The notes under the pieces: generated by a model
The model's database searches: none
The model's input: only the letters and a program-made list of their open reading frames with translations
Told to the model about the DNA's origin: nothing
Origin: Planctomycetota bacterium
GTDB lineage: Bacteria > Planctomycetota > JAJSAM01 > JAJVHW01
NCBI GenBank assembly: GCA_024280885.1
Contig: JAJRPF010000061.1
Location: forward strand, 1-64,000
Direction of reading: 5' to 3'
Length of the DNA stretch: 64,000 nt
Translations under genes and position numbers: made by a program
Shown: in pieces, positions 20,395-59,575 of the stretch
How the letters are laid out: each line of letters starts with the position of its first letter
How positions within the stretch are numbered: the stretch's first letter is position 1

Positions 20395-22998
20395 ATGAAC
20401 GACGACGCATCCCCCGTCCGGATCGAGGACCTGCTGCAGCATGCGGAGTGGGCCCGGGGGCTTGCACGTAGCCTGTTGCGCGATCCGTCGCGTGCCGACG
20501 ACATCGTGCAGGATGCGTGGCTGGCGGCGTTGCGTGCACCTCCGCAGGACCCGCGTCGGATTCGCGGTTGGCTCTCGCGAGTGATCCGCAATCGGGTTAT
20601 CGAACTGTACAGGTACGACCGGATCCGGAAGCACGACGACCTCATCGATGAGCCGCTCGACGCGCGTCAGGATGTGGCGGGGGCGGTTGCGCGCACCGAG
20701 CAAACGCGACTCGTTGCCGAGATGGTGCTCGAACTTCCGGACGCATACCGCGACGTGCTCGTGTTGCGCTACATCGACGACCTTTCCACGAACGTCGTTG
20801 CCACGAAGCTTGGCATCCCGGAAGCGACAGTGCGCAGCCGGACCTTCCGCGCCCTGGAGCAGATTCGCGGCCGACTGGACCGGCGCTGCGCTCGTTCCGG
20901 GAAGGACTGGCGCGCGGGTATGGCGGTGCTTGCGCTCGGCATCCGTGGCGCGGACGGGGCGGCCACCGCGCCGCGTCACACTCCCCGTTCCGTCCCGTCA
21001 CGTCGCCTGCGGCACGTAGCCGTCATGACCGGTGCGACGCTCGTACTCGGGACGTGTACGCTTCTCGCCTGGATGGTCCTGTTTGACGCAAGCGACACCG
21101 CGCCGCCGAGCGGCAGCGCAACTCTCATGGGCGAAGACAGAGCGGGCCGCGCAGACGCGCCGCGCCGCGTGCACGCGAACGGCGGATCGTCCGCATCGCA
21201 GCTGGCCCCCATCGTGACGCGGCATGACGTCGGACCGGAGGCGGCATCGCCGTCGTCGGTTCTCCGTGTGCACGGAACCGTGATCGGCGACGTGCCCGAC
21301 GTGGGTATCGACGTGCGGTTGAGCTGCCGCGTTCTGGACGTCCACGTGCGCGACCAACTCGACGTTTCGTTCATCGGACGGGCTCGACACGACGGATACG
21401 AGGTCGAGATCGATACGTCGATGCTGGATCCAAAGCGAGCGCTCGAACTCGAGATCAAGGTGAGCGATCCGGAACACGTCGTCACAACGATGCAGGTGGC
21501 TCTGCCACAGCCGTCCGCAGACGTCCGGGACTTCGAGGCACCGGCACTGCGCCTCGTCCGCGCGGCGATGTTCTGGGGTTCTCTCTTCGACGAGCACGGG
21601 GCGCCCATCGTCGGCGCGGAGTGTGCTCTCTACCGATTGTATGGCGACTGGCCGAGTCCGATCACCGAGGACGCCGCCGAGACAAACTGGGACGGGTACT
21701 ACGACCTGCGGCTACAGCCCGGAGCAGAGTACGTCATCGTGCTCGACGCCGCGGGGTACGTTCCGGGAATGACGGCGATGACCTGGAAGACGGCCGAAGA
21801 GACGCCACAGTGGCGCATCGAACTCGGGCGTGGCGAAGATCTGCGTGGCAGCGTGCACACACCGCCGGGATACGACGCGTCGCGCACATCCGTCCTTCTG
21901 CGTCGGCCGGCGTTGCCGAAGCCGGTCGGCGCACCAGCCGGGAACGCGATCGCCTTCTGCGACGGCGGGGTCGCGCGCTCCAGGGTGCTCATACCTGTGG
22001 AGGGAGACGGGACGTTCGCATTCGACGGGTTGCGAGCACTCGACGCGGTCATCTCCGTCGCGTGTGACGATGCGATGAGGTCCGTGCTACGAGCAAGTCG
22101 GAGGGCGGTCACGTTCCCGGCGTCGGTACAGCAGCTTCGCGTAGACGCCGGCGTCGTGCGCTTTCGGATTACCGCGGGCGATCGTGAAGTAGCGAACGCG
22201 GAGATCGAAGTCCACGACGCCGACGACCGGCTGTTGCTCACGACCGATGCCGCGGGCCGCGCGTTCCTCCTCGCCGTTCCGGGAGCGTCCTACGAGGCAA
22301 CGGTCCGGGCACCGGGTCACTCGACGTCGCAGCACACGTTCACGGCACCCGACCGGAACGCCACGGAGGATGTGACGATCCCGCTCCAGCCGCTAGTGAT
22401 GGACGCGGTGTGGCGCATGCGACTGCGCGCCCCCAACGGTGCCACCGTGCGGCGAGTCGGAGTTCAGATCCAGGCGCTCGCGTCGGATGTGCAGGCTCCA
22501 GGCGCACCATTCGAATTCGACATCGATGCCGACGCGCGCGGCCTGCTGGTGCTGCCGCCGATCCCGCCAGGGACCTACGAGGCCGTCATTCGGCCAGGCG
22601 GCGGTTGGAACGACCCGCGCTCTCCGTACCTAGAGGTTCGCACGTCGATCGTGCTCGAGTCGGGCATCTCCGACGTTGAAGACCTCGACGCGATGGCAGG
22701 TGGGCGGCTGCGTGTGCGCGCTGACTTGCGAGGGCGCGACGAGGGGGCAGTCCAGGTGCGGGTGCTCGACGCCGCGGGAAATCGCGTGGACGTGCAGTTT
22801 CGCCGTGCCGACACCGGGGCGCGCGACCCGTTGATCCTCTATAGCGGTCGCGAGACCTGGGTCGAGCCGGCGTTGCCGCCGGGCGTCTACCAACTCGACT
22901 TCTCGGACGACTCGCTCGACACGGGACTCGTTCCGTTCGAGATCCAGTCGGGCGAGGTCACGTTCACCATCGTCCCGTTGCGCGCTCGCCCCGAGTAG
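20395..22998 (+). CDS. ECF sigma factor fused to membrane anchor and extracytoplasmic domains (fusion 1)
   Basis: An 867-residue fusion. Sigma region 2 spans residues 12-80 (DDIVQDAWLAAL, IRGWLSRVIRNRVIELYR); sigma region 4 spans 112-162 (LPDAYRDVLVLRYIDDLSTNVVATKLGIPEATVRSRTFRAL). A basic linker leads to one transmembrane helix at 208-230. The remaining 637 residues would be outside the cytoplasm and contain at least three carboxypeptidase-regulatory-like beta modules (SLFDEHGAPIVGAECALY, ITAGDREVANAEIEVHD, LRAPNGATVRRVGVQI), with FRADTGA-type strands near the end. ECF sigma factors are normally about 180 residues, so the tail is a true addition. The ATG at 20395 follows GGAAGGAAA and matches the N-terminus of the paralogues. 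No anti-sigma gene is adjacent. I infer direct signal sensing by the tail; release of the sigma part would need proteolysis or action at the membrane. Confidence 0.85.
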   Translation: MNDDASPVRIEDLLQHAEWARGLARSLLRDPSRADDIVQDAWLAALRAPPQDPRRIRGWLSRVIRNRVIELYRYDRIRKHDDLIDEPLDARQDVAGAVARTEQTRLVAEMVLELPDAYRDVLVLRYIDDLSTNVVATKLGIPEATVRSRTFRALEQIRGRLDRRCARSGKDWRAGMAVLALGIRGADGAATAPRHTPRSVPSRRLRHVAVMTGATLVLGTCTLLAWMVLFDASDTAPPSGSATLMGEDRAGRADAPRRVHANGGSSASQLAPIVTRHDVGPEAASPSSVLRVHGTVIGDVPDVGIDVRLSCRVLDVHVRDQLDVSFIGRARHDGYEVEIDTSMLDPKRALELEIKVSDPEHVVTTMQVALPQPSADVRDFEAPALRLVRAAMFWGSLFDEHGAPIVGAECALYRLYGDWPSPITEDAAETNWDGYYDLRLQPGAEYVIVLDAAGYVPGMTAMTWKTAEETPQWRIELGRGEDLRGSVHTPPGYDASRTSVLLRRPALPKPVGAPAGNAIAFCDGGVARSRVLIPVEGDGTFAFDGLRALDAVISVACDDAMRSVLRASRRAVTFPASVQQLRVDAGVVRFRITAGDREVANAEIEVHDADDRLLLTTDAAGRAFLLAVPGASYEATVRAPGHSTSQHTFTAPDRNATEDVTIPLQPLVMDAVWRMRLRAPNGATVRRVGVQIQALASDVQAPGAPFEFDIDADARGLLVLPPIPPGTYEAVIRPGGGWNDPRSPYLEVRTSIVLESGISDVEDLDAMAGGRLRVRADLRGRDEGAVQVRVLDAAGNRVDVQFRRADTGARDPLILYSGRETWVEPALPPGVYQLDFSDDSLDTGLVPFEIQSGEVTFTIVPLRARPE

Positions 22999-27612: not shown

Positions 27613-27676
27613 GCTCATCGACTATTCGTCCGCGTTCCTGCACCCTCCGTCGCGTGTACGGTGTTCTCGAATCACG

Positions 27677-30600
27677 ATGACTTTCCCACAGACGCCCATC
27701 GCGATCGAGGACCTGCTTGCGCACCAGGCCTGGGTGCAACAGCTGGCGCGCACATTGGTCGAGGACGCCGCGTCCGCCGACGACCTGATCCAGGACGCAT
27801 GGCTGGCAGCACTACGGCGACCGCCACACGACGGACGATCACCGCGCGGTTGGCTCGCCACGGTTCTACGCAATCTCGCGCGCAATCGTCGCCGAGACGC
27901 CTATCGCCGCGACCGACACGAGTTCGGCGCCGCGTCTGCATCGACGGCGTCGAAGACCACCGCGACAACGGCAGCCGACCTCGTCGCCCGGGCCGATCTC
28001 GGAGCAACCGTCGCCCGGGCCGTCACCGCCCTTCCCGAGCCCTATCGGGCGACGATCCTGCGGCGCTACTTCGACGATCTCTCCCCGAGCGAGATCGCCC
28101 GCGTAACGGGTGCGCCGATCGACACTGTGAAGTCGCGCTTGAAACGTGGATTGGCGCTTCTCCGCGAGAGCCTCCGCGATGGCGACGACGACCGGCGCGC
28201 GTGGGCGCTCGCGCTCTTCCCTCTCGCAGCACTCTCGACGACGGGCAACACGACGCCGCCGCGTTCATCCTCGCCGACGCCCCTCGGACTACCTCTCGGA
28301 GGGTCGGCGATCTCTGCGACGACGAAGACTGTCGCCATGGTCGCGGCGGTACTCCTGATCGCCCTCGCATGGAACGTCATGGCCCCCGATCTGGGTCAGC
28401 CCGGCGACACAGAGCACGCGACAGAGGCCACCGGTCGGGAAGGTGGGCCGGAGACCCGAACGCGAGAGCACGTGGCAACCGACACCGCAGGCATGGCAAG
28501 CTCGGACAGCCCGACCGATCCTACGGCCACCGGGATCATCGTCGTCGGTGTGAAGTCGACGGATGACAAGCCCATCCCGAACGCCACGGTCCGCGTCTGG
28601 CCGTGGCGCACCAAGTTCGCCGGGGCGCCGGTGGCGCAGCGCGTCGGGCACCTCGAGACCGAACGCGATGACGTGACCGCCGAAGTCGAGTGCGACGCGA
28701 ACGGTGCGGCGACGATCACCGGAGTCCCGCCCGGCACGTACGAGCTCGACGTGCGCGCGGAAGGTCGCGCTGGCGAGTGGCCGCGCGTCACTATCCGAGA
28801 AGGCGTCACGGTGGAGTTGACTGTCCTCCTACAGGAGTCGGTCGAACTCGCGTGCCGGGTCATCGACGTATCCGGTCGGTCCGTGGAAGGTGCGTCAGTC
28901 GTCGTCGCTCCGATCGGTGCGGACGAACGGAGTACAGCCGCGCGTCTCGTGTCTCTCACGGACGCCGACGGACGCTGCACGGTCCGCGGGCTCGCGCGCG
29001 GTCGTCACTTCGTACGGGTGCGCACGTCCGCCAGCGTGACGTGGTCCGGCGGGACTGTGGACGCGGGTGCGGTACGACGCCACGTTGTACGCCTTGGCGC
29101 CACGGGGACGCTGACCGGTCGGATCGTGTCCGGACCAGCAGACAGCCCCGTCGCCGGAGCAATCGTCGGGGTCCGCGTGGAAGAGCCTTTCGACGCGCTT
29201 TCGCGCGGTCGTGCGCGATTCGGCGCCGAGACGGAGACCACGACCGACGTGACCGGGGCGTTCCGGATCGACGGCCTGCCGTTGGCGTCCGTCACCGTAG
29301 TAACAGTTCACGCTTCCGACTACGTGCCGTACGTCGAACACGCTTTCCCGATTCTCGCACCGCGGGTCGAACCCGGCGGCGGCCCGTCACTCCACGTGAC
29401 GCTGACGCGCACAGGATCGCTCCGCGGTACCGTCGCGGACGGCGCGGGAGAACCCATCGTAGGTGCACGTGTGCTGGCCTCTACGCGCGGCAGGAGTAAC
29501 TCCGTGGCGGGACGGACGTCCGCCGTTCTGTCGGGCGGCGACGGCACCTTTGTGCTGACGAATGTGGTCCCCGGCAACGTCACCGTGACGGTGGGCGCTC
29601 ACGGTTACTTCGCGCCGAGGCCGACGGCAATTGAGCTCGCTCCCGGCAGTACCGCACAGGTATCTGTCACCCTGCTCCGCGGAGGCACGGTCGCGGGCGT
29701 CGTCCGCGACGAGGCCGGAGACCCCGTCTCGGAGGCGACCGTCTACATCGCGCCGGCGAGCCGGCCGATCGGCGGACCCTCTGCGGTCACCGACAGCGAT
29801 GGAGCGTTTCGGGTCGAAGGCGTGCGACCGGGAGAGGTACTCGTCGCCACTGCCTCGTCGCCGCGTGGGTTTGGCCAGTCCGCGCGGTTCACGATCGAAG
29901 GTCGAGCGACGATCGGAGCCATCGGTATCGTCGTCGCCGACAAGCGCGGCTCGATCGAAGGCGTCGTCGTACGGGCGGACGGTCGACCGGTGGGCGGGAC
30001 GCGGGTTCGCGTGACGCGCGGGCCGATCGATCTCGCGCAACCTTGGATCCGACAGAGGGGCGATCAGGTCGTGGGCAGCGACGGGGCGTTCCGCTTCCCT
30101 GCCTTGGGACGTGGAACGTTCACGTTGGCGGCCTGGCTCCCCGGACTCCCTGTCGCAACCGGCGGGCCGATCCGACTTGCGGACCGCGCGAACGTGACCG
30201 GCGTGCGCATCGAGCTACCGCTGGCGGCCGAGATCCATGGGCGGGTTCTCGACGCCGAGGGAAGCCCGCTCGCGGGAGCCGCGATCGCCCACATGGCGGA
30301 CGGATGGCCGCAGCCGGGAAACGTCTCTGCGATCACGGATGCCGCCGGAGGCTTCACGATCGGAGGCGTCCGGCCGGGAGCGTTCAATCTCGTCGTGCTC
30401 GCAGCGGGCTACGTCGAAGCGCGCATGGAGGCCGTTGCCGGCGGTGGCGAGGCGCTTGTAACGCTGCGCCGCGGCGCGGCAATCGAGGGACACATCGAGA
30501 CCCAGGATGGTTCCACCCCGGCGCCTGTTCCAAGCTGGGTCGTCGTGTCCGGCGAGAACTCAAGCTCGTGGGCCCACGTCGCGGTCCGGCGCGACGGCTC

Positions 30601-31306
30601 CTTCCGCACGTTCCCGTTGGACCCGGAGGAGACCTACTCGCTCTACGCGTTCTACGCACCCACGTCGACGGGGCGCCGCGACTACCTTTCCGATCTTACC
30701 GAGAACGTGCGCACCGGCGCGACGAACGTCGTCGTGCGGATGCTCCCCACGGCCAGGATCACCGGGCGCGTCGTGGACGAACGCGGCGTGTCGGTCAGGA
30801 AGGGAGTTCCAGTCACGGGTATTGCCTACGGCGAGGAAGTCGGGGCACGCGGAGCGCGTTGGTCCACGCGCACGGCGGCCGACGGGAGCTTCGAGGCGGT
30901 CGCCCTGTCGGGGAAGAGGTACGGGATCATCGTCGGTGGCGGCCGGTCGGACTTCGTTCCGCGGGTGGCGGCGGACGACGTGGGCGCAGGGAGCACATCG
31001 CTCGCTCTGACCGTGCGGCGCGGAGTCACGATCGCGGGGCGAGTCGTCGGTACCGACGGAAGCGGGGTCAAGGGCGTGTCGGTGGGAGTGATCTTCGACG
31101 GCGATGCGCCGGCATCTCCGCTGCAGCGGGCCCTCGCGGGAGCACGGGGATGCGACACGACCGATTCGCGCGGCCGCTTCTCGTTACGAGGCGTCCCACG
31201 TGGAACGGTCGCGTTGTCGGTCTACGACGCCAGCAAGCGCAAGTGGGTCGGCGGGGGTGCACATCTGGCACCGTCAGCCGACGTGGAGATCCGCCTTCCG
31301 GAGTGA
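27677..31306 (+). CDS. ECF sigma factor fused to membrane anchor and ten carboxypeptidase-regulatory-like modules (fusion 2)
   Basis: A 1209-residue fusion. Sigma region 2 is at 12-82 (DDLIQDAWLAAL, PRGWLATVLRNLARNRRRDAYR); region 4 is at 117-167 (LPEPYRATILRRYFDDLSPSEIARVTGAPIDTVKSRLKRGL). RRAWALALFPLAAL (173-186) is a linker motif shared with fusions 3 and 5. One transmembrane helix lies at 217-235. The tail holds about ten beta-sandwich modules with the pattern hxGxVxDxxGxPhxGAxVxh, for example LRGTVADGAGEPIVGARV, VAGVVRDEAGDPVSEATV, IEGVVVRADGRPVGGTRV, IHGRVLDAEGSPLAGAAI and IAGRVVGTDGSGVKGVSV. Such modules usually bind carbohydrate or act as spacers. There is no clear ribosome binding site at the ATG; the start matches the paralogues. 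The gene is tail-to-tail with the TPR gene. Confidence 0.85.
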   Translation: MTFPQTPIAIEDLLAHQAWVQQLARTLVEDAASADDLIQDAWLAALRRPPHDGRSPRGWLATVLRNLARNRRRDAYRRDRHEFGAASASTASKTTATTAADLVARADLGATVARAVTALPEPYRATILRRYFDDLSPSEIARVTGAPIDTVKSRLKRGLALLRESLRDGDDDRRAWALALFPLAALSTTGNTTPPRSSSPTPLGLPLGGSAISATTKTVAMVAAVLLIALAWNVMAPDLGQPGDTEHATEATGREGGPETRTREHVATDTAGMASSDSPTDPTATGIIVVGVKSTDDKPIPNATVRVWPWRTKFAGAPVAQRVGHLETERDDVTAEVECDANGAATITGVPPGTYELDVRAEGRAGEWPRVTIREGVTVELTVLLQESVELACRVIDVSGRSVEGASVVVAPIGADERSTAARLVSLTDADGRCTVRGLARGRHFVRVRTSASVTWSGGTVDAGAVRRHVVRLGATGTLTGRIVSGPADSPVAGAIVGVRVEEPFDALSRGRARFGAETETTTDVTGAFRIDGLPLASVTVVTVHASDYVPYVEHAFPILAPRVEPGGGPSLHVTLTRTGSLRGTVADGAGEPIVGARVLASTRGRSNSVAGRTSAVLSGGDGTFVLTNVVPGNVTVTVGAHGYFAPRPTAIELAPGSTAQVSVTLLRGGTVAGVVRDEAGDPVSEATVYIAPASRPIGGPSAVTDSDGAFRVEGVRPGEVLVATASSPRGFGQSARFTIEGRATIGAIGIVVADKRGSIEGVVVRADGRPVGGTRVRVTRGPIDLAQPWIRQRGDQVVGSDGAFRFPALGRGTFTLAAWLPGLPVATGGPIRLADRANVTGVRIELPLAAEIHGRVLDAEGSPLAGAAIAHMADGWPQPGNVSAITDAAGGFTIGGVRPGAFNLVVLAAGYVEARMEAVAGGGEALVTLRRGAAIEGHIETQDGSTPAPVPSWVVVSGENSSSWAHVAVRRDGSFRTFPLDPEETYSLYAFYAPTSTGRRDYLSDLTENVRTGATNVVVRMLPTARITGRVVDERGVSVRKGVPVTGIAYGEEVGARGARWSTRTAADGSFEAVALSGKRYGIIVGGGRSDFVPRVAADDVGAGSTSLALTVRRGVTIAGRVVGTDGSGVKGVSVGVIFDGDAPASPLQRALAGARGCDTTDSRGRFSLRGVPRGTVALSVYDASKRKWVGGGAHLAPSADVEIRLPE

Positions 31307-31378
31307 CTCGAGGCGATCCCGAACGCGCGGGTCCTGCCGGAACCGCAGCACGTGCCCGGATGTGCCATCGCTTCGTTT

Positions 31379-31497: not shown

Positions 31498-31527
31498 ACT
31501 CCAGAGTTCCACCGCCTCGGCGCACGA

Positions 31528-42176: not shown

Positions 42177-43108
42177 GCGAGGCGCACCCGGGGATCGACG
42201 ATCGTATAGAGAATATCCGTCAGCAGGTTGGCGACGATGTAGAGGATCGCGGAGATGAACGTGATCGCCCGGATGACCGGCATGTCATCGCGCAGAACGC
42301 CGTCGACGATCATTCCGCCGAGCCCGGGAATAGAGAAGTACATCTCCAGAAGCAGCGCGCCGGTGAAGAGGAACGGCAACACGACGACCACGCGCGTGAG
42401 CACCGGGATCATCGCATTGCGCAGCACATGCTTGAAGAGAACGACGTTCGCGCTGACGCCCTTCGCCTTCGCCGTACGCACGTAGTCCTGGCGCACCTCT
42501 TCGAGCATTGCCGTGCGATAGAAACGCAGGTCGGGGCCAATCGTCAGCGCAATGAACATGAGGATGGGGAGCGCGACGAATGCCACGGCCCCGGGACCGC
42601 GCTCGTAGCCGGAGATCGGGAACATTCCTGCCTTGTAGGCGAGCAGGTACTGTCCGATCACAACATAGACGAGTGACGAGATACTCATGAGTCCGATCGC
42701 CGTCACGAGCAAGAAACGATCGACGAATTTGCCGCGGAAAGCGGCGCAGAAGAGCGCGAGCGAGACGGCGATGAGCGTCGCGATCGCGAACGCCGGCACG
42801 GTCAGCGAGAGCGATGGCCCCATGCCGCGGACGATCATCTCGATGATGTTGACCTTGTAGTTACGCGATCGGCCGAAATCGAGTGTGACGTTCTTCCACA
42901 GGAAGTTCCCGAAGCGCACGTAGGCCGGATCGTTGTAGCCGAGCTGTTCGTGCAGGCGGGCGATGCTCTCCGGAGTCGCCGCCTTGCCGAGTTGGGTCGC
43001 GGCCGGGTCGCCCAACACACCGGAATCGAAGATCGCCCAGACGATGAGCGAGACGCCGATGACGAGCGGGATCGTGTAGATCAGGCGGCGGATGATGTAC
43101 GCGGTCAT
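42173..43108 (-). CDS. Peptide ABC transporter permease, DppB/OppB type
   Basis: A 311-residue permease with about six transmembrane helices, starting MTAYIIRRLIYTIPLVIGVSLIVWAIFD, the typical OppB/DppB N-terminus. The periplasmic loop (residues 30-100) and the EAA motif (RTAKAKGVSANVVLFKHVLRNAMIPVLT) are intact. It overlaps the binding-protein gene upstream by 4 bp and the second permease gene downstream by 4 bp. Confidence 0.93.
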   Translation of the reverse strand: MTAYIIRRLIYTIPLVIGVSLIVWAIFDSGVLGDPAATQLGKAATPESIARLHEQLGYNDPAYVRFGNFLWKNVTLDFGRSRNYKVNIIEMIVRGMGPSLSLTVPAFAIATLIAVSLALFCAAFRGKFVDRFLLVTAIGLMSISSLVYVVIGQYLLAYKAGMFPISGYERGPGAVAFVALPILMFIALTIGPDLRFYRTAMLEEVRQDYVRTAKAKGVSANVVLFKHVLRNAMIPVLTRVVVVLPFLFTGALLLEMYFSIPGLGGMIVDGVLRDDMPVIRAITFISAILYIVANLLTDILYTIVDPRVRLA

Positions 43109-44961
43109 TTCGCGGAAGGCTCCGACAGTCCGAGGCGGCGTGCCTTCTCGGCGCGATCAACGTCGTAGTACTTGAACGCCCAGAAGTTGAACTGCAGGTA
43201 CTTGAAGTTGCGCAACCACGGTTGGGTGTACGTGTACTGAATGCGGTAGTCGGTGAAGCTCCACGGGCAGTCCTCGTAGAGAACGGTGAGCATCTCTCTC
43301 ACGACATCGTTGCGCTCGGGGCCCATGGGCATCACGGCGAACTGTTCGAAGAGCGCGTCGTACTCGGGGCTTGCGTAGTTGGAGTTGTTCGGACCCGGTG
43401 ATCCGTTCGGCCCATAGAAGAGCTGGAGGAAGTTCTCCGCATCGGGGTAGTCGGCGTTCCACGCCATCCCGAAGAGCTGCGCCTTCTTCTGCCGCACCTT
43501 GTTCAGGAACTGGTCCCACGTCTGCCCGTTGAGGTTCACGTCGATGCCGATTTCGCGCATGCTCTGCTTGAAGATTTCGGCGCCCTTGCGGCTCGTCGTA
43601 CTGACTCCGCTCAGCTCGTACTCGAGTGGCGCCAGCCCCTTCCCGCCCGGGTAGCCCGCCTCGATCAGGAGTTGCTTGGCGCGCTCAACATCCCGCCCCG
43701 CGTAGGGCGACGGCTCATCGACGAACCCCTGGACACTCGGCGGCAGCGGGCCGAACGCAGGCGTCGCCCAGAACCCGTTGCGCATGACCTTGATCCACTG
43801 CCCCTGGTCATACGCGAGACAGATCGCCTGGCGCAGCTTGCGGCCGCGTTCACCAGCCGGTTCGCCGAGCGTCTCGTCCTCCATATTGAATGCGAAGTAC
43901 GCGATGTCGGCCTTCGTCGCCACCGACACGCGGATGCCCTGCTCCTTGAGCTCGGGCCGCAGTTGATCGGTGCCGCGTTGCATGGCCTCTTGCCAGATGT
44001 CCTGCTCCGTTTCGACACGATCGATGTCCCCGCTGACGAAGCGCAGCCAGCGTGGCTGGGGTGCCTCGATCACGACAAACTCGACGCGGTCGAGGAACGG
44101 CATGGGGCGACCGGCATAGTCCAGAAGGCCCAATTCGTCGTCGCCGGGCGCGCCCTCGGTCGGGTACGCCTCGCCGCGAAACGTGGGGTTGCGCTCGAAG
44201 AGGATCTTCTTGTCGGGCGGCCAATACTCCTCGACGCGATATGGCCCGGTCCCGACCGGGTGCAGGTGCATCGTCATCCCGTAGTAGTCGAGGGCCTCGT
44301 GCGGGTAGACGGCCGTGTACGACATCGCGAGTGTGTAGAGAAACTGCGGGAACGGCTTGGTCAGCGTGAACTGGATCGTGAAGTCATCGAGAACTCGCAG
44401 ACCGGCGACCTCTTCATCGCGCAGTTCCGCCATCTCGGGGTGCTCGAATGGGTAGTACTCGTTGACGGCGTCGAAGAGCTCTCCCAGCTCTTCGCCGCAG
44501 CGCTCCCCCCACGCGTCGAGCCCCACGATCCGATCCTCGAGGAGCCACCTTCCCGTGGATGTCGGGACGCCCATGAAGCGCTTGATGCAGTAGACGACGT
44601 CGTGGGCGGTCATCCGTCGCCCCTTACCGCCGTCGAAGCACGCGTTGTCCTGGAAGAAGACGTCCTGGCGGACCTTCACGGTGAAGACGAGGCCGTCCTC
44701 GCTCACCGCCGGCATCTCCTCGGCGAGACACGGCGTCAATTCGACGGGACGCTTGAGATAGTGGTACTGCAGCAGCCCTTCGTAGACCTGGGACTGCGCT
44801 CCCCCCGAATACATGTCGCCCGAATCGATGGGGTCGAAGCCCTTGATCGCTCCGACGGAGACGAAGCGCGCATCTGCAGGCGGCGGACGCTCACAGCCCA
44901 CCAGCGGCATGACCATCACGCACACGAATGCGAGCGCCCAGCCACGAAGTTTCGAGTGCAT
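43105..44961 (-). CDS. Peptide ABC transporter substrate-binding lipoprotein (SBP family 5)
   Basis: A 618-residue lipoprotein (lipobox MPLVGC, Cys23) of the OppA/DppA family. Typical segments are GAKGF-type start SVGAIKGFDPIDSGDMYSGG, RQDVFFQDNACFDGGKGRRMTAHDVVYCIKRF, LHPVGTGPYRVEEYWP, LRQAICLAYDQGQWI and NADYPDAENFLQLFYGPNGSPGPNNSNY. It probably binds di- or oligopeptides in the periplasm and delivers them to the two permeases. GGGAGG precedes the ATG. The lack of ATPase genes means these must be supplied from elsewhere. Confidence 0.92.
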   Translation of the reverse strand: MHSKLRGWALAFVCVMVMPLVGCERPPPADARFVSVGAIKGFDPIDSGDMYSGGAQSQVYEGLLQYHYLKRPVELTPCLAEEMPAVSEDGLVFTVKVRQDVFFQDNACFDGGKGRRMTAHDVVYCIKRFMGVPTSTGRWLLEDRIVGLDAWGERCGEELGELFDAVNEYYPFEHPEMAELRDEEVAGLRVLDDFTIQFTLTKPFPQFLYTLAMSYTAVYPHEALDYYGMTMHLHPVGTGPYRVEEYWPPDKKILFERNPTFRGEAYPTEGAPGDDELGLLDYAGRPMPFLDRVEFVVIEAPQPRWLRFVSGDIDRVETEQDIWQEAMQRGTDQLRPELKEQGIRVSVATKADIAYFAFNMEDETLGEPAGERGRKLRQAICLAYDQGQWIKVMRNGFWATPAFGPLPPSVQGFVDEPSPYAGRDVERAKQLLIEAGYPGGKGLAPLEYELSGVSTTSRKGAEIFKQSMREIGIDVNLNGQTWDQFLNKVRQKKAQLFGMAWNADYPDAENFLQLFYGPNGSPGPNNSNYASPEYDALFEQFAVMPMGPERNDVVREMLTVLYEDCPWSFTDYRIQYTYTQPWLRNFKYLQFNFWAFKYYDVDRAEKARRLGLSEPSAK

Positions 44962-49967: not shown

Positions 49968-50120
49968 CGAAGAGAGCCGGGCACGCTCGGCAACTCGGCA
50001 CCTGCGCGCTCGCGCCGCCTCATGCGAGAATGGCACGACTTGAACCGGATTCGCGGCGGCGCGGATTTCATTCTCAGGATGAGTGCCGAACGCGAACCGT
50101 TGACCACCGGAACCGACCGG

Positions 50121-53100
50121 ATGAGCCGAATCGAAAGGCTGCTTGAGCACCGCGAGTGGCTGCGCGACCTGTCGCGCCGTCTCGTCGTCGATGCCAACCT
50201 CGCCGATGATCTCGTGCAGAAGACCTGGCTCGCAGCGGTCGAGAGACCTCCGCATCACACGCAGCGCCCCCGAGCTTGGCTCGCGACCGTGATGCGTAAC
50301 TGGCTCCGCCGCGAGTGGCGTGACGAGGCAGTGAAACGTCGTCACGAACAGGCTGCGGCGCGGCCGGAGAGCATCGCCGGTCCCGACGAGTTGGTTGTGC
50401 GCGCAGAGGAGATGCGAGTCGTTGTCGGGGCCGTCTTGGCCCTGGACGATCCGTATCGAACGACGTTGCTCTACCGCCATCACGAGGGTCTCGCGCCGCG
50501 GCATATCGCCGAGCGCATGGGCATCCCCGTCGAGACGGTGCGCACACGGTTGAAGCGTGGCATGGCGATGGTCCGGCGCGACCTCGACGCGCACCACGGC
50601 GGCGATGGCCGTACGTGGGCGCTGGCACTCCTCCCTCTGACCACCATGCCCGTCAGTCCCGCGTCCGTCGGCGCTCAAGCGAGCGCTGCAGCGCGCGGCG
50701 GTGACGCAACAGGGTACGCCCTGGGAGAACTTCTCGTGAAAGCCACGCTCAACAAGGCCGCCGTCGTCACCGTCCTACTCGTGCTCGCTCTCTTCGGCGG
50801 AGGGGCCGCGCTGCTCGCCGCGCAGGAGGGCGGCTCCGGCGACGTTGCAGCCGAAGGCGACCAACGCGAAGCCGACACCGGGCCGCGACGAACCCGCGTT
50901 GGGGAAGAGGCTTCAGCCACCGACGATGGCGACGATGGTCCAGCGCGCGCCGGAGTTGGGGACGGCGAGCCCGCTGCGTCGAGCGCTGCCGGACACGCGC
51001 TCGGCGTGACCGTGCTGGATGTCGACGGCGCACCGCTCGGCGGCGCACGCGTGGAGTGGTATCGGCAGCCGAGCATCTTCCCGCTCTTCGGCGCTTGGGA
51101 GAAAGGGCGGCGTCTTCTGCGCGGAGTAGCGCCTGTCGCGGCAGCCGTGACAGGCGACGACGGGATCGCCACGGCCACGCTTCCTGGCGACGGCCCGTGG
51201 ACGATGATCACGCGCGCTGCCGGACACGCGACGGGCTTTCGATGGTCCGTCAACTCGCCGCTTGGGGCCGACCGCTCCGCGCCTCTGGTCGAACGACTCT
51301 TGACCGGGTACGCCATCGACGGATGCATCCTGAGCCGTGACGGCTCTCCCGCTGCGGGGATCGAGCTTCTCGCTGACAGCATCGGAATGAGCGGCACCGT
51401 CATCCGCGGCTCTCGCACGGTGACGGCGGCAGACGGGACGTTCCGCCTCGACGGACTGCGGCCCGGCGAGGCGCATCTCTTCGCTGGCGGCGTACGCCTA
51501 GCGCGACTGCGGGTTCCGACCACCTCGCCTGTCACGCTGACCCTCGGCGGGAACGTCATCCGTGGCCGCGTTACCCGCGCGGAAGGCGGCGCACCGATCG
51601 GCGGCGTCGCCGTCTTCGCTCAGTTGATCCGTGAAACGCTCGGCGTGGTCCGAACCACGACAGACGCGGACGGACGCTACGAACTCGACACGCTGGTTCC
51701 GGCTTTCGTCAGCGAGATACGACTGGAACGAGAGGGGCTCGTCGATACGCGGACGACGATGTCGATCGACGGCGGCGTTGGGTTCGACGCGCTCGGTCAC
51801 GGCCGCATGGATTTCACGATGTCAGAGAGCGCGAGTCTCACTGGCATCGTCCGGACGGACGGCGTCCCCATCGCTGACGTCGGCGTCGCAGTCGTGTTGC
51901 GCGACTGGCGTTCGTTCGCCACGCGAACGGATGCGAACGGCCGCTACGTCCTGACGACCGTGCCACCAGGAAGCGTCGTCGTGATCGTGGACGCGCAACG
52001 CACGACGTTCTATCAGGCGGAGCTGCCCGCAAACTGGCTCGACGCACACCGTCGCGGCAAGGACATCAAGGGCTGGAGCGTCTCATTGACCGCTGGAGTC
52101 ACGACCGAACACGATCTCTCGCTGACCAACGGCGTCACTGTGCGAGGGACTGTCCGTCACCCGGACGGATCGCCTGCCGAAGGTGCCCGGGTCACGTTCG
52201 GATCGGGCACTACGCCTGTCTCCGACGCCGCCGGGCATTTCGTCTCACGCGGAGTCAGACCGGCGGCCGGGGCCACTGTCTTCGCGAGTCTGCCGGGTGC
52301 CCGCGCGTTCCAGCAGGTGAACCTTCTCGACGAGTCGGCACGAACCGGACTGGACATCGTCATGCAGCCAGCGACGCGGATCGTCGGTCGCGTGACGAAC
52401 CGACGAGGCGAGTCCGTTCGGGGTGCGTTCGTGCAGATCTTCGCTTCGCGGCGACGCCTCGCTGAGAGAGCGTCCGTATCCGACGACGGATCGTTCGAGT
52501 TGCTCACCCTGGAGCGCGGCACCGTATCGCTGCGTGCATTCGCCCCCGGCCACAGTCCGGCGGAACCACTCAAGCTCGACGCGACACCAGGCGCGGAACT
52601 CGGCAACGTCCGCTTCCTCCTCGACGCGGCCGTTTCCATCAGCGGCACGGCGCGCACGTCGCGCGGCGTCCCGATCGAGGGGGCACGAGTCGCACTCATC
52701 GAGGGCGGTACGCGCACCAGGAACACTGAGGATCGTGACCTGCTCACCGCCGCGGTCACGAACGCCAAGGGTCGCTTCGTCATACCCGACGTGGCGCAGG
52801 GATCGTGGACTCTCGTTCTCGTCGGAGACGAGATCGTGCGCTGGGAGCGCGCACTCGACGTCGCCGCGCCGATGACGATTGATGTGACCTGCACGCGTGC
52901 CCGCACGATCTCCGGAGTCATACAGCATCCCGGAACAGCGCCGCTGACGGGTGTATCAGTGATCGCGTATCGCCAGGGCGCGCGGACAGGCGAACCAGGA
53001 TACCGGGTGTCAGTGAATTGCGCGGCCGACGGGACGTTCGTGCTGACCGGCCTTCGTGACGGCGTGTACGACATCAAGACGTTCGTGTGGAAGAGGGTCA

Positions 53101-54281
53101 AAAAGAGTCTGCTCAACGTTGAGATGAAGGGCATCGCCGCGGGCGCCGAGGATCTCGTCATCGACATGCGCCCGGCCGGAGAGATCCACGGTGTGGTCGT
53201 CGACCCGGACGGCCGCGGGATCGCGCACGCCCGTGTTCAGGCGTTCTCGGAGTCCGGACATCGCGGCACGCCGAGTGGCGCGACCGACGCGGACGGGTCG
53301 TTTCAGATCACGGGCATCGACCCCGCGCACGGTCCCTACACTCTGCGCATCAAGCCCCCGGAACCGCAGCGCCTTCCGCGTTTCGAGGTACTCGGTCCCT
53401 ACACCACGGCAACGATCGAGGGCGTCCAGGTCGGTCAGTCGGGCATTCGGGTCGTGATCCCAATCGGCAACGTCATCGAGGGCGTCATCGTCGACTCAGC
53501 AGGCAAGCCGCAGCCCGGCGTATGGGTCAAGGCCGAGTGCGTCACGCACGACAAGCTGAGTCCGCACGAGCGGACGTGGCTGCGTGGTCCGGGCACGCAG
53601 GCGGGTGAAGACGGCCACTTCCGGTTCCAAGGGCTTCCCGACGCCGCGTTCGCTCTCTTCCTGATGCCGAACCCGTACAGCGATCCGAATGGGCAGCCGC
53701 GCGCACTCGCCGGCGCGGAACATGTCACCGCCGGCACGACGGGACTGACGCTCCGGACTGCCGCGGTCGGCAGTGTGACGGGTGTGGTCGTCGATGACGA
53801 TGGGACGCCCGTCGCGAACACGCGCGTCACCGCGATGCCGGAAGGAACGGAGATTCTCTCGGCCCGCGTGACGGCGAAGACCGACTCCAACGGACACTTC
53901 ACGCTCGCGGCGCTGGTCGTGGGTCGGGCCTACGCGGCGACCGTGTCGGTCCCTGACCGTGTCCGCACGACCGTTCTGGATGTACGCGCCGGAGGAGGCC
54001 TGCTGCGTATCGAACTCTCGCGCGGCGAGTCAATCTCCGGGCGACTCATCGTCCCCGAGGGGCAGTCGGCGAAGCGCCGTTTCCTCCGGCTCTACCACAG
54101 CGACGGCGACTACGAGACCGGCCTCAGCACGAACGACAACGGCGCCTTCGAACGCAACGCCCTGCTGCCCGGCACGTATCGCGTCGAGGTCCAGACGAAC
54201 CCAGGGGAGTGGCCGGCTGCGATGCAGTCCGTCGGGACGATCACCACGGGAACAAACGACATCGTCATCCGCCTCGAGTAG
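50121..54281 (+). CDS. ECF sigma factor fused to membrane anchor and about twelve carboxypeptidase-regulatory-like modules (fusion 3)
   Basis: A 1386-residue fusion, the longest of the five. Sigma region 2 is at 5-75 (ADDLVQKTWLAAVERPP, PRAWLATVMRNWLRREWRDEAVKRR), region 4 at 107-155 (LDDPYRTTLLYRHHEGLAPRHIAERMGIPVETVRTRLKRGM). The linker motif GRTWALALLPLTTM is at 163-176 and one transmembrane helix at 213-234. The tail carries about twelve modules of the pattern hxGxVxxxxGxPhxGAxV, for example IRGRVTRAEGGAPIGGVAV, VRGTVRHPDGSPAEGARV, IVGRVTNRRGESVRGAFV, IHGVVVDPDGRGIAHARV, IEGVIVDSAGKPQPGVWV and VTGVVVDDDGTPVANTRV. Starts at 50121 and 50079 are both possible; neither has a strong ribosome binding site. 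It is tail-to-tail with fusion 4, 43 bp apart. Confidence 0.85.
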   Translation: MSRIERLLEHREWLRDLSRRLVVDANLADDLVQKTWLAAVERPPHHTQRPRAWLATVMRNWLRREWRDEAVKRRHEQAAARPESIAGPDELVVRAEEMRVVVGAVLALDDPYRTTLLYRHHEGLAPRHIAERMGIPVETVRTRLKRGMAMVRRDLDAHHGGDGRTWALALLPLTTMPVSPASVGAQASAAARGGDATGYALGELLVKATLNKAAVVTVLLVLALFGGGAALLAAQEGGSGDVAAEGDQREADTGPRRTRVGEEASATDDGDDGPARAGVGDGEPAASSAAGHALGVTVLDVDGAPLGGARVEWYRQPSIFPLFGAWEKGRRLLRGVAPVAAAVTGDDGIATATLPGDGPWTMITRAAGHATGFRWSVNSPLGADRSAPLVERLLTGYAIDGCILSRDGSPAAGIELLADSIGMSGTVIRGSRTVTAADGTFRLDGLRPGEAHLFAGGVRLARLRVPTTSPVTLTLGGNVIRGRVTRAEGGAPIGGVAVFAQLIRETLGVVRTTTDADGRYELDTLVPAFVSEIRLEREGLVDTRTTMSIDGGVGFDALGHGRMDFTMSESASLTGIVRTDGVPIADVGVAVVLRDWRSFATRTDANGRYVLTTVPPGSVVVIVDAQRTTFYQAELPANWLDAHRRGKDIKGWSVSLTAGVTTEHDLSLTNGVTVRGTVRHPDGSPAEGARVTFGSGTTPVSDAAGHFVSRGVRPAAGATVFASLPGARAFQQVNLLDESARTGLDIVMQPATRIVGRVTNRRGESVRGAFVQIFASRRRLAERASVSDDGSFELLTLERGTVSLRAFAPGHSPAEPLKLDATPGAELGNVRFLLDAAVSISGTARTSRGVPIEGARVALIEGGTRTRNTEDRDLLTAAVTNAKGRFVIPDVAQGSWTLVLVGDEIVRWERALDVAAPMTIDVTCTRARTISGVIQHPGTAPLTGVSVIAYRQGARTGEPGYRVSVNCAADGTFVLTGLRDGVYDIKTFVWKRVKKSLLNVEMKGIAAGAEDLVIDMRPAGEIHGVVVDPDGRGIAHARVQAFSESGHRGTPSGATDADGSFQITGIDPAHGPYTLRIKPPEPQRLPRFEVLGPYTTATIEGVQVGQSGIRVVIPIGNVIEGVIVDSAGKPQPGVWVKAECVTHDKLSPHERTWLRGPGTQAGEDGHFRFQGLPDAAFALFLMPNPYSDPNGQPRALAGAEHVTAGTTGLTLRTAAVGSVTGVVVDDDGTPVANTRVTAMPEGTEILSARVTAKTDSNGHFTLAALVVGRAYAATVSVPDRVRTTVLDVRAGGGLLRIELSRGESISGRLIVPEGQSAKRRFLRLYHSDGDYETGLSTNDNGAFERNALLPGTYRVEVQTNPGEWPAAMQSVGTITTGTNDIVIRLE

Positions 54282-54324
54282 GCGCAATCGGCGTCTGGAT
54301 CGGAACGCGCTACATGCAGGGGAA

Positions 54325-56331
54325 TCATTCCTCGAAGAGAATCACGGTGTCACCTCGAACCTTCCACTTCAACGAGTGGCCGCTCGCCAGACAGATCGCA
54401 CGCAGCGCGCCCTCGATCGTGTCATCCGCGACGCGCAGCGAGACCGTCACACCGAAGACGTCGCCGGGCGTACCGGAAGCGAAGGTCACCTGGAGCGCGC
54501 TCTCTCTGCGAATGCGCGCGAGCAATCGGTTGAGGGGTTCGTCGGTGACGTCGAACGAGATCCTCTCGTCTCGCAGTCGATCGGCGACGTCGGCCTTGCG
54601 AAGCTCGACATCCATCTCGGAGACGCTGCCCGCGATGATCTCGATCACGCGTGCCTCGCGCACGTGTCCACGCGCGGAGACCGTCAGTTCAATCTCTCCC
54701 TCGGGAAGGTAATCGATCGTCGCGGGTTCTCCGTCGCGGCTCGAGGCCGACGCTCCCGCGACAGTCGGCTCCGGGATCTCCGGGACGCTCGCGGTGTCGA
54801 TCGATGGGGGAACCATCCAACGAAACCGCACACGGGCCGACTTCACGACCTCGCCTGAACTACTTGTCACACGAATGACCGCGGTCCCCGCCGGACCTCC
54901 CATCACCAACGCAACCTCCACCTCGTCTCCGTAGCGCCCGCTCACGCGGAAGATATTCGAGCGCTGCAACCCGCCCTTGCGCGCGAAGAGTGACCCGAAC
55001 TGCTTCTTCAGCTCCGCCGAGAACGCGCCGTGCTCGTCCGTGGTCGCCACCAGGCCCGAGTGATAGATGGAAGCCCCGGGAACGCCGATCCCGCTCGGGT
55101 CCACGACAGTTCCGCGCACGACGAGGGATTGCGGCGCGTTCGGATCGCGAGAAGCAGGCTCGATGACCTCGGTCGCCATTCCAGCCGACCACTCATCCGA
55201 TCCAGAGTGGAGGACCACGCGATCAGCTTCCACCGCCAACCGCAGTCCGCACACCCTCACGAGAGTCTTGAGTGCCACGACGGCGGTGACGTCAGAGAAC
55301 TGCATCGTCATCGGCATGGAGTCGAGTGACGCCGCCGAGCGCACATCAGCATGGATCGCGATCCCGGTGATGTCTGAGATCTCCGCAAAGACGGTGCGAG
55401 CTGTGTCACTCGCGAAGCGCAGAACGTCGATCCGCTCCTGAAGCAGCTCAGCGACGGTTCGAGTGTCTTCCTTGGACATTTCCGCCACGTCGAGTCGCTC
55501 GTCGGCTGGCGGCGGTCGGACTCGCACACGGTTCGATCGCGGCGATCGCGCGACGGACGCCACCGACTCGACCTCGGGTGCTGCTGCAATCTCGGGATCA
55601 ACGGAATGTGCGTCGGCATCGGCGCGATTCAGTGCGTTCTCTCCGCCACTGAGCCCCCACCACGCCCCGCCCAAGAGAGCGAGCCCCAAGACGATCCCAC
55701 CTGCGAGTTTCCATGCCATCGCCAATCCCCCCACGGCCACGGTGGCCGCTCCTCCGACTGCCGCATTCACTGTGTCGCGATCGAGCAGCGGTAACAGCAC
55801 CACCGCCAGCGGACGACCGCGTCCGACGTCGCGCTCCAACCGCCCTCGTAGCTGCTCCCGGCCCCGTCGCAGGCGCGCCCGCGTCGTCTCGAGTGGCGCG
55901 CCCATCTGCGTCGCGACCTCCGCGACGGCGAGACCCTCGAGGTAGCGCAGAAGCAACGCCTGCCGGTACGGTTCGGGGAGCGCGACGACAGCGGTCGCGA
56001 CCTGCGCGTGAGCGTCAGCCCGCGCAGCGAGATCCGCCGGATCGCTCACGGAACTCGCTTCCCCGCGCGCGACGGCCTTCTCGCGCGCACGCCGTCGCCG
56101 CCGAGAGCGTCCCTGTTTGCGCGCCGCGTTGCGAGCCACGGTAGTCAACCATCCGCGCGGTGACTCACCGGTTGACGGCGGACTCGTCATCGCCGCGAGC
56201 CACGTCTGCTGCTCGACGTCGTCGGCCTCGTTCTCGTCGCGCGTCAACGCGAGCGCGAGCGTCCGCACCCACTCCCGGTGCGCGAGCAGGAGATCGAGGT
56301 GAACGGCGGGATCCGGTGCGATGCCCATCAT
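54325..56331 (-). CDS. ECF sigma factor fused to membrane anchor and two STN-like domains (fusion 4)
   Basis: A 668-residue fusion. Sigma region 2 is at 13-80 (ADDVEQQTWLAAM, PRGWLTTVARNAARKQGRSRRRRR), region 4 at 117-167 (LPEPYRQALLLRYLEGLAVAEVATQMGAPLETTRARLRRGR). A shorter linker motif (RPLAVVLLPLLD) and one transmembrane helix (208-227) follow. The tail differs from fusions 1-3: an STN-like domain at about 300-376 (TARTVFAEISDITGIAIHADV, MTMQFSDVTAVVALKTLVRV, RVVLHSG), one carboxypeptidase-regulatory-like module at 404-445 (VVRGTVVDPSGIGVPGASIYH), and a second STN-like domain at 590-668 (ISFDVTDEPLNRLLARIRRES, VTVSLRVADDTIEGALRAI, DTVILFEE). STN domains occur at the N-termini of secretins and signalling TonB receptors and interact with periplasmic partners. 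Either of two adjacent ATGs (56331, 56328) may be used, after GTAGGG. Confidence 0.85.
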   Translation of the reverse strand: MMGIAPDPAVHLDLLLAHREWVRTLALALTRDENEADDVEQQTWLAAMTSPPSTGESPRGWLTTVARNAARKQGRSRRRRRAREKAVARGEASSVSDPADLAARADAHAQVATAVVALPEPYRQALLLRYLEGLAVAEVATQMGAPLETTRARLRRGREQLRGRLERDVGRGRPLAVVLLPLLDRDTVNAAVGGAATVAVGGLAMAWKLAGGIVLGLALLGGAWWGLSGGENALNRADADAHSVDPEIAAAPEVESVASVARSPRSNRVRVRPPPADERLDVAEMSKEDTRTVAELLQERIDVLRFASDTARTVFAEISDITGIAIHADVRSAASLDSMPMTMQFSDVTAVVALKTLVRVCGLRLAVEADRVVLHSGSDEWSAGMATEVIEPASRDPNAPQSLVVRGTVVDPSGIGVPGASIYHSGLVATTDEHGAFSAELKKQFGSLFARKGGLQRSNIFRVSGRYGDEVEVALVMGGPAGTAVIRVTSSSGEVVKSARVRFRWMVPPSIDTASVPEIPEPTVAGASASSRDGEPATIDYLPEGEIELTVSARGHVREARVIEIIAGSVSEMDVELRKADVADRLRDERISFDVTDEPLNRLLARIRRESALQVTFASGTPGDVFGVTVSLRVADDTIEGALRAICLASGHSLKWKVRGDTVILFEE

Positions 56332-56425
56332 CCCTACAATCCCAGGAGGTGCGGCGGAGGGTGCAACTCTCGCTCAGAATTTTCTGCGTGGTGCGTGGAG
56401 CATCTCGTGACCCCGGCTCGTCGCG

Positions 56426-57406: not shown

Positions 57407-57546
57407 GCGGTCATCTGCTCCATCGGTGCGCGAAATGCGGAGCTCTTTCGAGCTCGCTCGTCGTGATCCCAAGCGACCACTTGGCGCACCGTAGCAAGAA
57501 CCTCGCCCACGACGGACTCCTTGCGAGCCCGGGCGATCCGGCTGGA

Positions 57547-57752
57547 CTAGCAGTCTGTCGGAGTAGTCCGTCGAGGACCGGATTCGTCCAGGGGCGTCGT
57601 CCGTCGTGCTTGACGGGCGAAGTCCCTGCCGAAGCAACATCGAGCCTGGCAAGTGCGGCGGACGGCGTTCCTGGGCGGAGTTGACGGTTCGCAAGCACGA
57701 ATTGCTACGGCCCATTCGCCGGTTCCGATGGACTACTCCGACAGGCTGCTAG
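57547..57752. mobile_element. 206-bp MITE-like element with 23-bp terminal inverted repeats
   Basis: CTAGCAGTCTGTCGGAGTAG at 57547 (continuing TCC to 57569) and the reverse complement of 57730-57752 match at 22 of 23 positions. The outermost CTAG at both ends is palindromic, so it may be a 4-bp target duplication (or TA), leaving 19-bp inverted repeats. There is no room for a transposase gene, so this would be a non-autonomous element. It lies between the SDR gene start and the stop of sigma fusion 5; the TAG stop of that gene (57749-57751) is inside the terminal CTAG. Confidence 0.8.
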
Positions 57753-59575
57753 AGCTTGAGGAAGATGGGAGGCGCCGAGATCGCCCGCAGCCGTCCCCGG
57801 GCCTCGTCGGTCAGTGGCACGACGCGCAAGATCGAGTCGTAGAGGCGGAGAGCCTCCGCCGAGCTACGCGTGACCTGATCCCCGTCGAACATCAGCAGCG
57901 CGGCGAGCCCGTCACGCTCGCTCTCGAGCAGCGTCTCCGAGAGTCCCTCGGCCCACTCGTGCGCGAGTTGCTCGATTTCCGCCTCGCGCTCCTTCGCCGG
58001 CCTCACCAGCCGCCCAAGGTCTTTCAGCATCCCCTTCGCGACCGACGCGCGCGTGCCATCGTGCTTGACGAGTCTGACCGCCTGCCCCCATTGAATAGCG
58101 GAGCTGAAGAGATCGAGGTTGGAGACGTCGCGCACACTGTCGGGCCGGAGGAGCGTATTCTGTTCGGCCGTCAGGAGCGCCGTCACCGCGTCGAAGAACT
58201 TCGTGCGCGAAACGACGTCGTCGTGGAGTTTCTGCAATTCGAGCGTCTCGGCCCCGTACGTGGCGACGCGCTGCTTCTCGCGCGCGATCTGCGCGTTCGC
58301 GATCCGATCGAGTTCCCGCTCCTGTGTCGTCGTCAACGGAGTACCGGCGGCTCGCAATGTGGCCGCGATCAGGTTGGACATGAACGGCGGACTCGCATAC
58401 GGCCCGTTGGTGCCGATCCCCGGGAGACTCCCGGCGATGCGGGCCGCAGCAGCGATCAGCGGCGCGTTCTTGTTCTGGATCCCGGTGATGACCTCCGGGG
58501 GCAGTTCCTCGCCCGCGTCAATCGCTGACCGCAACGACACCAAGAGTTGGACGAGTTCGCCGGTGGCGAGCCCCACCTGGTCCCAGTCGATCTCGTCCAG
58601 CACATCGTCGTACGCGCCAAACGAGATCGGCGCGCCATCCCTGCTCGTGTCGGCGCTGGCCATCGCGTCGGACAACGAGATGCCGAGCTCGGCAACCTCG
58701 GCTTCGAGTCCTGCACTGTGCTCTCTCGACTGGGCGAGTTCCTGCTCGAGTGCGCGGATACGCGCGTCACGTTTCCCGAGGCTCCCCGAGAGTGTCTCCG
58801 CGCGTCCGCGCTCCGTGTCGAGGGCACGCGTCGCACCAACCAGCGCTGCCTCGTGCGCCTCCCCATCGTCGCCCACCGCGGGAGCTGCGATCCATCCGCC
58901 GCTCAGTCCGAGCACCAGAGCCGCCGCGGCAACCAATCCGAACTTCGTGTTGGCAGTCATCAGAGCAACTCCTGTGATGGTTCCGGCACCGCCCGCGGTC
59001 GCTGCCGCGCCGCGATCCAGTCGGGCCAGGGGAACGAGGGCGAGGGCCCATGCGCGGCGATCCCCGGCGTGCTGCGTATCCAGCTCGGCACGCAGTCGTT
59101 CGAGCGCCCGCCGCGTACGCGTACGCACCGTCTCGACGGGACAGCCGAGGCGACGCGCGACTTCGCGCGGCGGCAGCCCCTCGAAGAATCGCAGCACGAG
59201 AACGTCGCGATAGTTCGCGTCGAGTTGCAGCACGAGTTCGGAGACACGTCGGTGCGACTCCGCGTCGGCGACCGACTCAGCGACCGACGGAACGGCCTTC
59301 GCCGCCTCGCCGCGCGCCTCGTGCACGGCCCTGGACTGCGCCGCGCGGGACTGCGCAGCGCGACCACTGTCGGCCGCCTTGCTGCGAACCACCTTCGACA
59401 GCCACCCGCGCACACTCTCTGCATGTCGCGGCGGAGTGCGCAACGACGCCAGCCAGGTCTCCTGCATGACATCCTGCGCGACGTCGTCGTCGTGTACGAG
59501 CCGACGTGCCAGCGCGTGCATCCACGTGGAGTGCTCGAGGAGCGTCTCGATCGGCAGAGGTACGGGCGCGGTCAT
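57749..59575 (-). CDS. ECF sigma factor fused to membrane anchor and coiled-coil/helical extracytoplasmic region (fusion 5)
   Basis: A 608-residue fusion. Sigma region 2 is at 11-72 (VAQDVMQETWLASLRTPP, VRGWLSKVVRSKAADS) and region 4 at 118-165 (LDANYRDVLVLRFFEGLPPREVARRLGCPVETVRTRTRRAL). The loop between them has a small repeat (RAAQ, SRAAQ, SRAVH, residues 72-85). The linker motif DRRAWALALVPLARLD (172-187) matches fusions 2 and 3. One transmembrane helix is at 209-231. The tail has no beta modules: a coiled coil at about 245-300 (LDTERGRAETLSGSLGKRDA, ALEQELAQSREHSAG) and a helical domain to the end. The ATG at 59575 follows GGTGAG. The stop codon lies in the end of the MITE-like element. 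Confidence 0.85.
   Translation of the reverse strand: MTAPVPLPIETLLEHSTWMHALARRLVHDDDVAQDVMQETWLASLRTPPRHAESVRGWLSKVVRSKAADSGRAAQSRAAQSRAVHEARGEAAKAVPSVAESVADAESHRRVSELVLQLDANYRDVLVLRFFEGLPPREVARRLGCPVETVRTRTRRALERLRAELDTQHAGDRRAWALALVPLARLDRGAAATAGGAGTITGVALMTANTKFGLVAAAALVLGLSGGWIAAPAVGDDGEAHEAALVGATRALDTERGRAETLSGSLGKRDARIRALEQELAQSREHSAGLEAEVAELGISLSDAMASADTSRDGAPISFGAYDDVLDEIDWDQVGLATGELVQLLVSLRSAIDAGEELPPEVITGIQNKNAPLIAAAARIAGSLPGIGTNGPYASPPFMSNLIAATLRAAGTPLTTTQERELDRIANAQIAREKQRVATYGAETLELQKLHDDVVSRTKFFDAVTALLTAEQNTLLRPDSVRDVSNLDLFSSAIQWGQAVRLVKHDGTRASVAKGMLKDLGRLVRPAKEREAEIEQLAHEWAEGLSETLLESERDGLAALLMFDGDQVTRSSAEALRLYDSILRVVPLTDEARGRLRAISAPPIFLKL

Follow-up and report, generated by a model that had tools for sequence, protein, structure and literature searches.

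A conserved putative internal start site at the membrane helix of tethered ECF sigma factors in Planctomycetota

Results

Five genes in a 64,000-nucleotide stretch of Planctomycetota DNA (hereafter the window) encode membrane-tethered ECF sigma factors of a large family found in planctomycetes, and we consider it reasonably likely that most members of this family encode two in-frame proteins that work in the manner proposed below. Most members share a conserved putative internal start at the membrane helix, a site whose presence is established statistically and in which GGAG is followed after 8 nt by ATG or GTG and then by a Lys-containing signal anchor.

Architecture of the five window genes

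The first-pass annotation had described five ORFs that join an N-terminal ECF sigma unit to one transmembrane (TM) helix and to different tails, and all five are present where it had placed them:

W1, 20395..22998, + strand: ECF sigma, one TM helix and a CarboxypepD_reg-type tail (Pfam, hydropathy)
W2, 27677..31306, + strand: ECF sigma, one TM helix and about 8–10 CarboxypepD_reg modules (Pfam, DNA)
W3, 50079..54281, + strand: ECF sigma, one TM helix and about 9–12 CarboxypepD_reg modules (Pfam, ORF, promoter geometry)
W4, 54325..56331, − strand: ECF sigma, one TM helix and an STN-like / beta-sandwich / STN-like tail (Pfam, model, fold search)
W5, 57749..59575, − strand: ECF sigma, one TM helix, a coiled coil and a helical domain (Pfam, model)

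Sigma70_r2 and Sigma70_r4_2 score above the Pfam cut-off in all five, and this combination of sigma2 and sigma4 with no sigma3 is that of the ECF (group 4) sigma factors. Among the NCBIfam models listed for the window proteins, every equivalog and subfamily model scored below its cut-off. Beyond sigma4 each of the five has one hydrophobic helix, about 180–230 residues past the start of the sigma domain, as judged by Kyte-Doolittle hydropathy and structure models rather than by a dedicated topology predictor. In the model of W5 the helix spans residues 211–228, and a fold search with this model matched the N-terminus to ECF sigma structures only. The domain order can be read directly from the sequence, and it suggests a topology with the sigma unit inside and the sensor outside. 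Elsewhere in the window, positions 41256–44961 hold an oligopeptide ABC transporter operon (SBP_bac_5 and two permeases, with 4-base gene overlaps).

Size and distribution of the family

The source genome (6.3 Mb in 74 contigs) contains 87 matches to sigma region 4, and 47 of these, the window five among them, fall in long ECF–TM–tail ORFs; with 47 such ORFs in one genome, the five-ORF pattern is far beyond chance. Sigma70_r2 and Sigma70_r4_2 are present by Pfam in 47/47, and by hydropathy every long member has a helix following sigma4. A search for the same chassis in other genomes, which the annotation had proposed, found it in 60 of 294 sampled Planctomycetota genomes and 49 of 209 genera (scored at E below 1e-45). 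With 78 protein-kinase matches in addition to the 87 for sigma region 4, the source genome has a signalling repertoire that is very large for its 6.3 Mb.

The data do not support sigma and tail as separate overlapping genes: all 132 sampled members, which were chosen for long ORFs, have an uninterrupted in-frame linker, while stops occur in the other two linker frames in 48 and 37 of the 132. Chassis searches run without length selection listed mostly long open frames, and many of the shortest hits were at contig ends. One sigma ORF of the chassis type (L060, 2549–3472) stops soon after sigma4 and appears decayed, with no recognisable TM–tail found downstream of it in any frame.

Variable tails on a common chassis

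The annotation had read the tails as swapped onto a common chassis, a view that holds up: in the source genome only 9 of the 47 members have a nearest sigma paralog from the same tail cluster, a figure that singleton tails inflate toward exchange but that still supports it. CarboxypepD_reg is present in 34 of the 47 chassis proteins. The module type assigned to W1, W2 and W3 was correct, but the claimed counts of 3, 10 and 12 were not reproduced by Pfam, which gave 2, 8 and 9 significant modules under a strict threshold that undercounts them. Similarly, the two STN-like domains proposed for W4 reappear as a repeated topology in the model, at residues 300–376 and 590–667, but have no Pfam STN match; in this model (mean pLDDT 68) they form alpha/beta domains flanking beta-sandwich domains, and a fold search returned a weak structural match to 4m0h, a putative anti-sigma factor. 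The tail of W5 was modelled as the coiled coil (238–308) and helical domain that had been proposed (mean pLDDT 87). A fold search with this model found nothing clear for the tail, and weak TnpB matches in a sequence search against solved structures were treated as chance.

Homologs of the W5 tail also exist as free-standing proteins with an N-terminal helix and no sigma:

C55:14372-15553: free-standing W5-type tail gene directly after a fused gene
C14:17447-18661 (L044): free-standing W5-type tail gene, AGGAGGT before its ATG, adjoining a fused gene
C59:535929-537116 (L078): free-standing W5-type tail gene adjoining a fused gene

Since tail-only proteins are encoded in their own right, a mixed population of fused and tail-only proteins is plausible. 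A free-standing sensor-tail gene without sigma, adjoining a sigma-fused paralog, was seen at L065 (3358–4593).

A putative start site inside the reading frame

Directly before many of the helices the linker reads M-x-x-K, and in the DNA a GGAG lies about 8 nt ahead of that Met, as in W5 (acaggagttgctctg-ATG) and in L076 (gtaggagccctcctc-ATG). The first-pass annotation had not described such sites. The 3' end of the 16S rRNA carries CACCTCCTTT, an intact anti-Shine-Dalgarno. The sites and predicted products in the window are as follows:

W3, 50724..50727, + strand: internal Shine-Dalgarno GGAG
W3, 50736..54281, + strand: predicted tail-only product from internal GTG 50736 (1181 aa, VKATLNKAAVVTVLLVLALF...)
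W4, 55749..55755, − strand: internal Shine-Dalgarno GGAGGAG, serving GTG 55740
W4, 55726-55732, − strand: second, weaker GGGGGGA, preceding ATG 55719
W4, 54325..55740, − strand: predicted tail-only product from GTG 55740 (471 aa) or ATG 55719 (464 aa)
W5, 58969..58973, − strand: internal Shine-Dalgarno AGGAG
W5, 57749..58960, − strand: predicted tail-only product from internal ATG 58960 (403 aa, MTANTKFGLVAAAALVLGLSGGW...)

The homolog L134 has a strong GGAGG-ATG at the position matching W4 ATG 55719, and the W5-type product has homologous free-standing genes. No internal Shine-Dalgarno and start were found in W1, and the W2 site is degenerate, with GGAGG ahead of the TM helix followed by ATC in place of ATG.

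Across the source genome, an ATG or GTG with a Shine-Dalgarno of at least 4 bases occurs in the TM zone of 27 of the 47 members, compared with 10.3 ± 2.3 in synonymous shuffles, and relatives gave a similar picture (65 of 85, against 25 ± 3.8 in synonymous-codon shuffles). When the first Met near the helix was picked from the protein alone (90 of 132), so that the DNA did not guide the choice, codon −4 was Gly in 66 of 90 cases; this Gly was encoded by GGA in 53 of the 66, against a background of 17% (p 8e-29), and GGAG stood at exactly −12 in 50 of the 90. Read from the other side, the codon at +4 after an in-zone GGA followed by G is ATG, GTG or TTG in 61% of cases (6.6% elsewhere), and the neighbouring codons +2, +3, +5 and +6 are start codons in 10–15%. 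Where Val occupies +4 it is encoded by GTG in 19 of 25 instances, compared with 38% in the background (p 1e-4), and Lys or Arg follows within 6 residues after 92% of the sites. The predicted RNA structure is weaker at the site than at other internal Mets (−10.1 versus −14.2 kcal/mol, p 2e-14), a difference in openness that is not separated from GC content, which is also lower in the site windows.

The bias recurred in 40 held-out proteins from further genomes and other genera (GGA in 15 of 19, against 16%; p 2.8e-9). Among ten distinct ortholog-like pairs, the site is present in both partners in nine (13 of the 15 rows listed) and absent from both in the tenth, and in the aligned pairs the Gly of the site is GGA or GGG, never GGC or GGT. 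A clear site is absent from about 40% of members (54 of 132 by a GG[AG]G rule), including W1 and effectively W2, so the site is not essential to the chassis; on the sigma tree its presence clusters weakly (34 changes, versus 41 when shuffled).

A chance origin of the site is rejected by the synonymous shuffles, by the contrast with start codons elsewhere inside the ORFs and by the held-out set, and a protein-level motif as sole cause by the position of the bias in synonymous codons (GGA, GTG). Nor is the site a general trait of cytoplasm-to-TM fusions, since it occurs in none of the kinase–TM ORFs of the source genome, of which only nine were usable. A tail-only product is thus what this statistically defined site would predict.

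A shared promoter box close to the sigma start

The sigma-start Met lacks a Shine-Dalgarno of at least 4 bases in 76 of 92 genes. The hexamer TGAACC is found in 46 of 129 upstream regions, and about 32 of these copies lie 35–44 nt before the sigma start, where approximately 0.2 would be expected (an estimate from the rate in the window, 19 in 64 kb on both strands). By eye, a CGTCTA-like −10 element follows about 16–18 nt past TGAACC in many of them. In the held-out set the box was less frequent, with 7 of 35 at 30–49 nt even under the looser pattern TGAAC. Two copies lie in the window:

50041..50046, + strand: TGAACC, ECF-like −35 box of W3, 38 nt upstream of ATG 50079
59612..59617, − strand: TGAACC, ECF-like −35 box of W5, 42 nt upstream of the sigma start and conserved in the homolog L139

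For W3, ATG 50079 is probably the sigma start in preference to 50121, because this choice puts the box at 50041 at a distance of 38 nt, in keeping with the paralogs. The shared box suggests a common ECF promoter across the paralogs, and its geometry implies a very short or absent mRNA leader; a leaderless or near-leaderless sigma start is thus probable, as is autoregulation.

The linker and the missing anti-sigma domain

Neither a zinc-finger nor a FecR-type anti-sigma domain was found by Pfam in the five window proteins, nor, respectively, among the 25 commonest families or the families listed for the 47. As no such domain lies between sigma4 and the helix, the tail or the linker plausibly stands in for the anti-sigma factor. 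The annotation had gone further, proposing that the tail replaces the anti-sigma factor and that these are one-protein sensors; the lack of a recognised anti-sigma domain agrees with the first part, but a single product is probably too simple a description, given that a conserved internal Shine-Dalgarno and start codon predict a separate tail product. Between sigma4 and the helix, a (GDRR)xW..AL.PL motif recurs in about 64% of members (84–85 of 132) and is a candidate intramolecular inhibitor; in the W5 model it forms a helix (173–179). In many short ECFs, the downstream gene begins within a few bases.

Discussion

The usual account of ECF regulation pairs a sigma factor with a separate anti-sigma protein, an arrangement that this lineage seems to have swapped for dozens of one-gene receptors per genome. 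In our proposal, the full-length form would place sigma2–sigma4 in the cytoplasm, followed by the (GDRR)xW..AL.PL motif, a low-complexity linker, the signal-anchor helix and a variable sensor outside. Translation from a second ribosome binding site, placed where the helix begins, would allow the helix and sensor to be made independently, without sigma. The sensor-only copies would outnumber the sigma-bearing ones, co-assemble or compete with them, and in this way may set the signalling threshold; a signal on the sensor would free or activate the tethered sigma, with release possibly by intramembrane proteolysis, by analogy with IutY. We give about an even chance to the more specific reading that a single ORF constitutes a built-in dosage device in a phylum-level family, whose leaderless start would yield the tethered sigma sensor and whose Shine-Dalgarno-led helix start would yield the sensor alone. 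If this is true, the balance between signalling and silent receptors would be fixed by two different modes of translation initiation. The genes look built for two products in a set ratio, half of which automatic annotation would hide, and the codon-level signal makes the two-product model testable through one Gly codon.

Three other explanations deserve consideration. The proteins could be single-product tethered sigma factors in which GGAG-ATG is a relic of an ancient fusion between a sigma gene and a downstream signal-anchor gene. Such an origin fits the occurrence, beside fused genes, of free-standing tail genes, one of which has a Shine-Dalgarno of its own, and some members have decayed sites, such as the GGAGG-ATC of W2. 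A relic would however be expected to lose its synonymous GGA, which has been kept in 53 of 66 cases across proteins at about 35% identity, and also in homologs at 35–72% tail identity and in other genera of the held-out set; we therefore find this explanation unlikely. We think it very unlikely that GGAG acts not as part of a start but as a programmed translational pause that helps to direct the internal helix to the membrane during translation. In E. coli, pausing at Shine-Dalgarno-like sequences has been proposed to occur near membrane segments, and the GGAG does sit directly ahead of the sole membrane helix, but a pause would not account for the enrichment of start codons at exactly +4 and not at its neighbours, for Val sites that use GTG and not GTC, for open RNA at the site, or for the lack of GGAG sites in the kinase–TM proteins of the same genome.

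The remaining alternative inverts the roles of the two products: the short one would be the main structural output, for example an extracytoplasmic adhesin or an envelope protein, and the sigma form a minor export read-out feeding back on its own promoter. The stronger Shine-Dalgarno at the internal site than at the sigma start, the resemblance of the tails to surface beta-sandwich repeats (among them the widespread CarboxypepD_reg) and the ECF-like promoter box just upstream all fit this arrangement. Against it, the diversity of the tails and the expansion of the sigma unit to 47 copies are more sensor-like, and leaderless initiation can be efficient; we regard this alternative as improbable.

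Relation to known systems

Membrane-tethered ECF fusions are known in ECF48, ECF52, ECF53 and IutY (PMC8999054, PMC5826349). The annotation had noted C-terminally extended ECFs in planctomycetes, for which ECF57 is a precedent, but membrane-tethered ECFs are not confined to that group, as ECF48/52/53 and IutY illustrate (PMC8999054). Like ECF48, ECF52 and ECF53, the chassis fuses an ECF sigma to a TM helix and then to an extracytoplasmic domain; those groups, however, are actinobacterial, and in them a zinc-finger anti-sigma domain separates sigma from the TM helix. The chassis has a short motif and linker in that place; it also differs in the internal start, in its varied tails and in the dozens of paralogs present in a genome. 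For SCO4117 of Streptomyces coelicolor (ECF52), positive autoregulation has been suggested, and release by proteolysis has been put forward (PMC8999054, PMC5826349). In Pseudomonas putida, IutY (ECF243), which sets a precedent for Prc- and RseP-dependent release (PMC8999054), likewise holds sigma and a membrane-spanning regulator within one polypeptide, but its anti-sigma domain is of the iron-starvation cell-surface-signalling type, which Pfam does not find in the chassis; only the W4 tail, with its STN-like domains and weak match to 4m0h, comes near it. The planctomycete ECF57 has a large C-terminal extension with WD40-like repeats and paired cysteines (PMC8999054). The chassis shares the large extension and the planctomycete host with ECF57 and other C-terminally extended ECFs, but has one TM helix and Ig-like or STN-like tails, and no WD40 match was found by Pfam in the five window proteins or among the families listed for the 47.

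In its tethering the family adds a new branch to a known type of protein, and the conserved internal start appears new. We found neither the combination of a tethered ECF with an internal start nor a planctomycete family with these tails in the open-access literature, and an earlier mention of the tethered family may exist elsewhere. For CheA (short form), IF2 beta and CcmM (short form), a second start lets a single ORF specify both a long protein and an N-terminally truncated version (PMC11005335), and the chassis resembles these cases in carrying a conserved Shine-Dalgarno and putative start codon within its reading frame. Those, however, are single genes, whereas the putative device of the chassis recurs at one domain boundary throughout a large paralogous family in many genera, and sits beside a first start that is probably leaderless.
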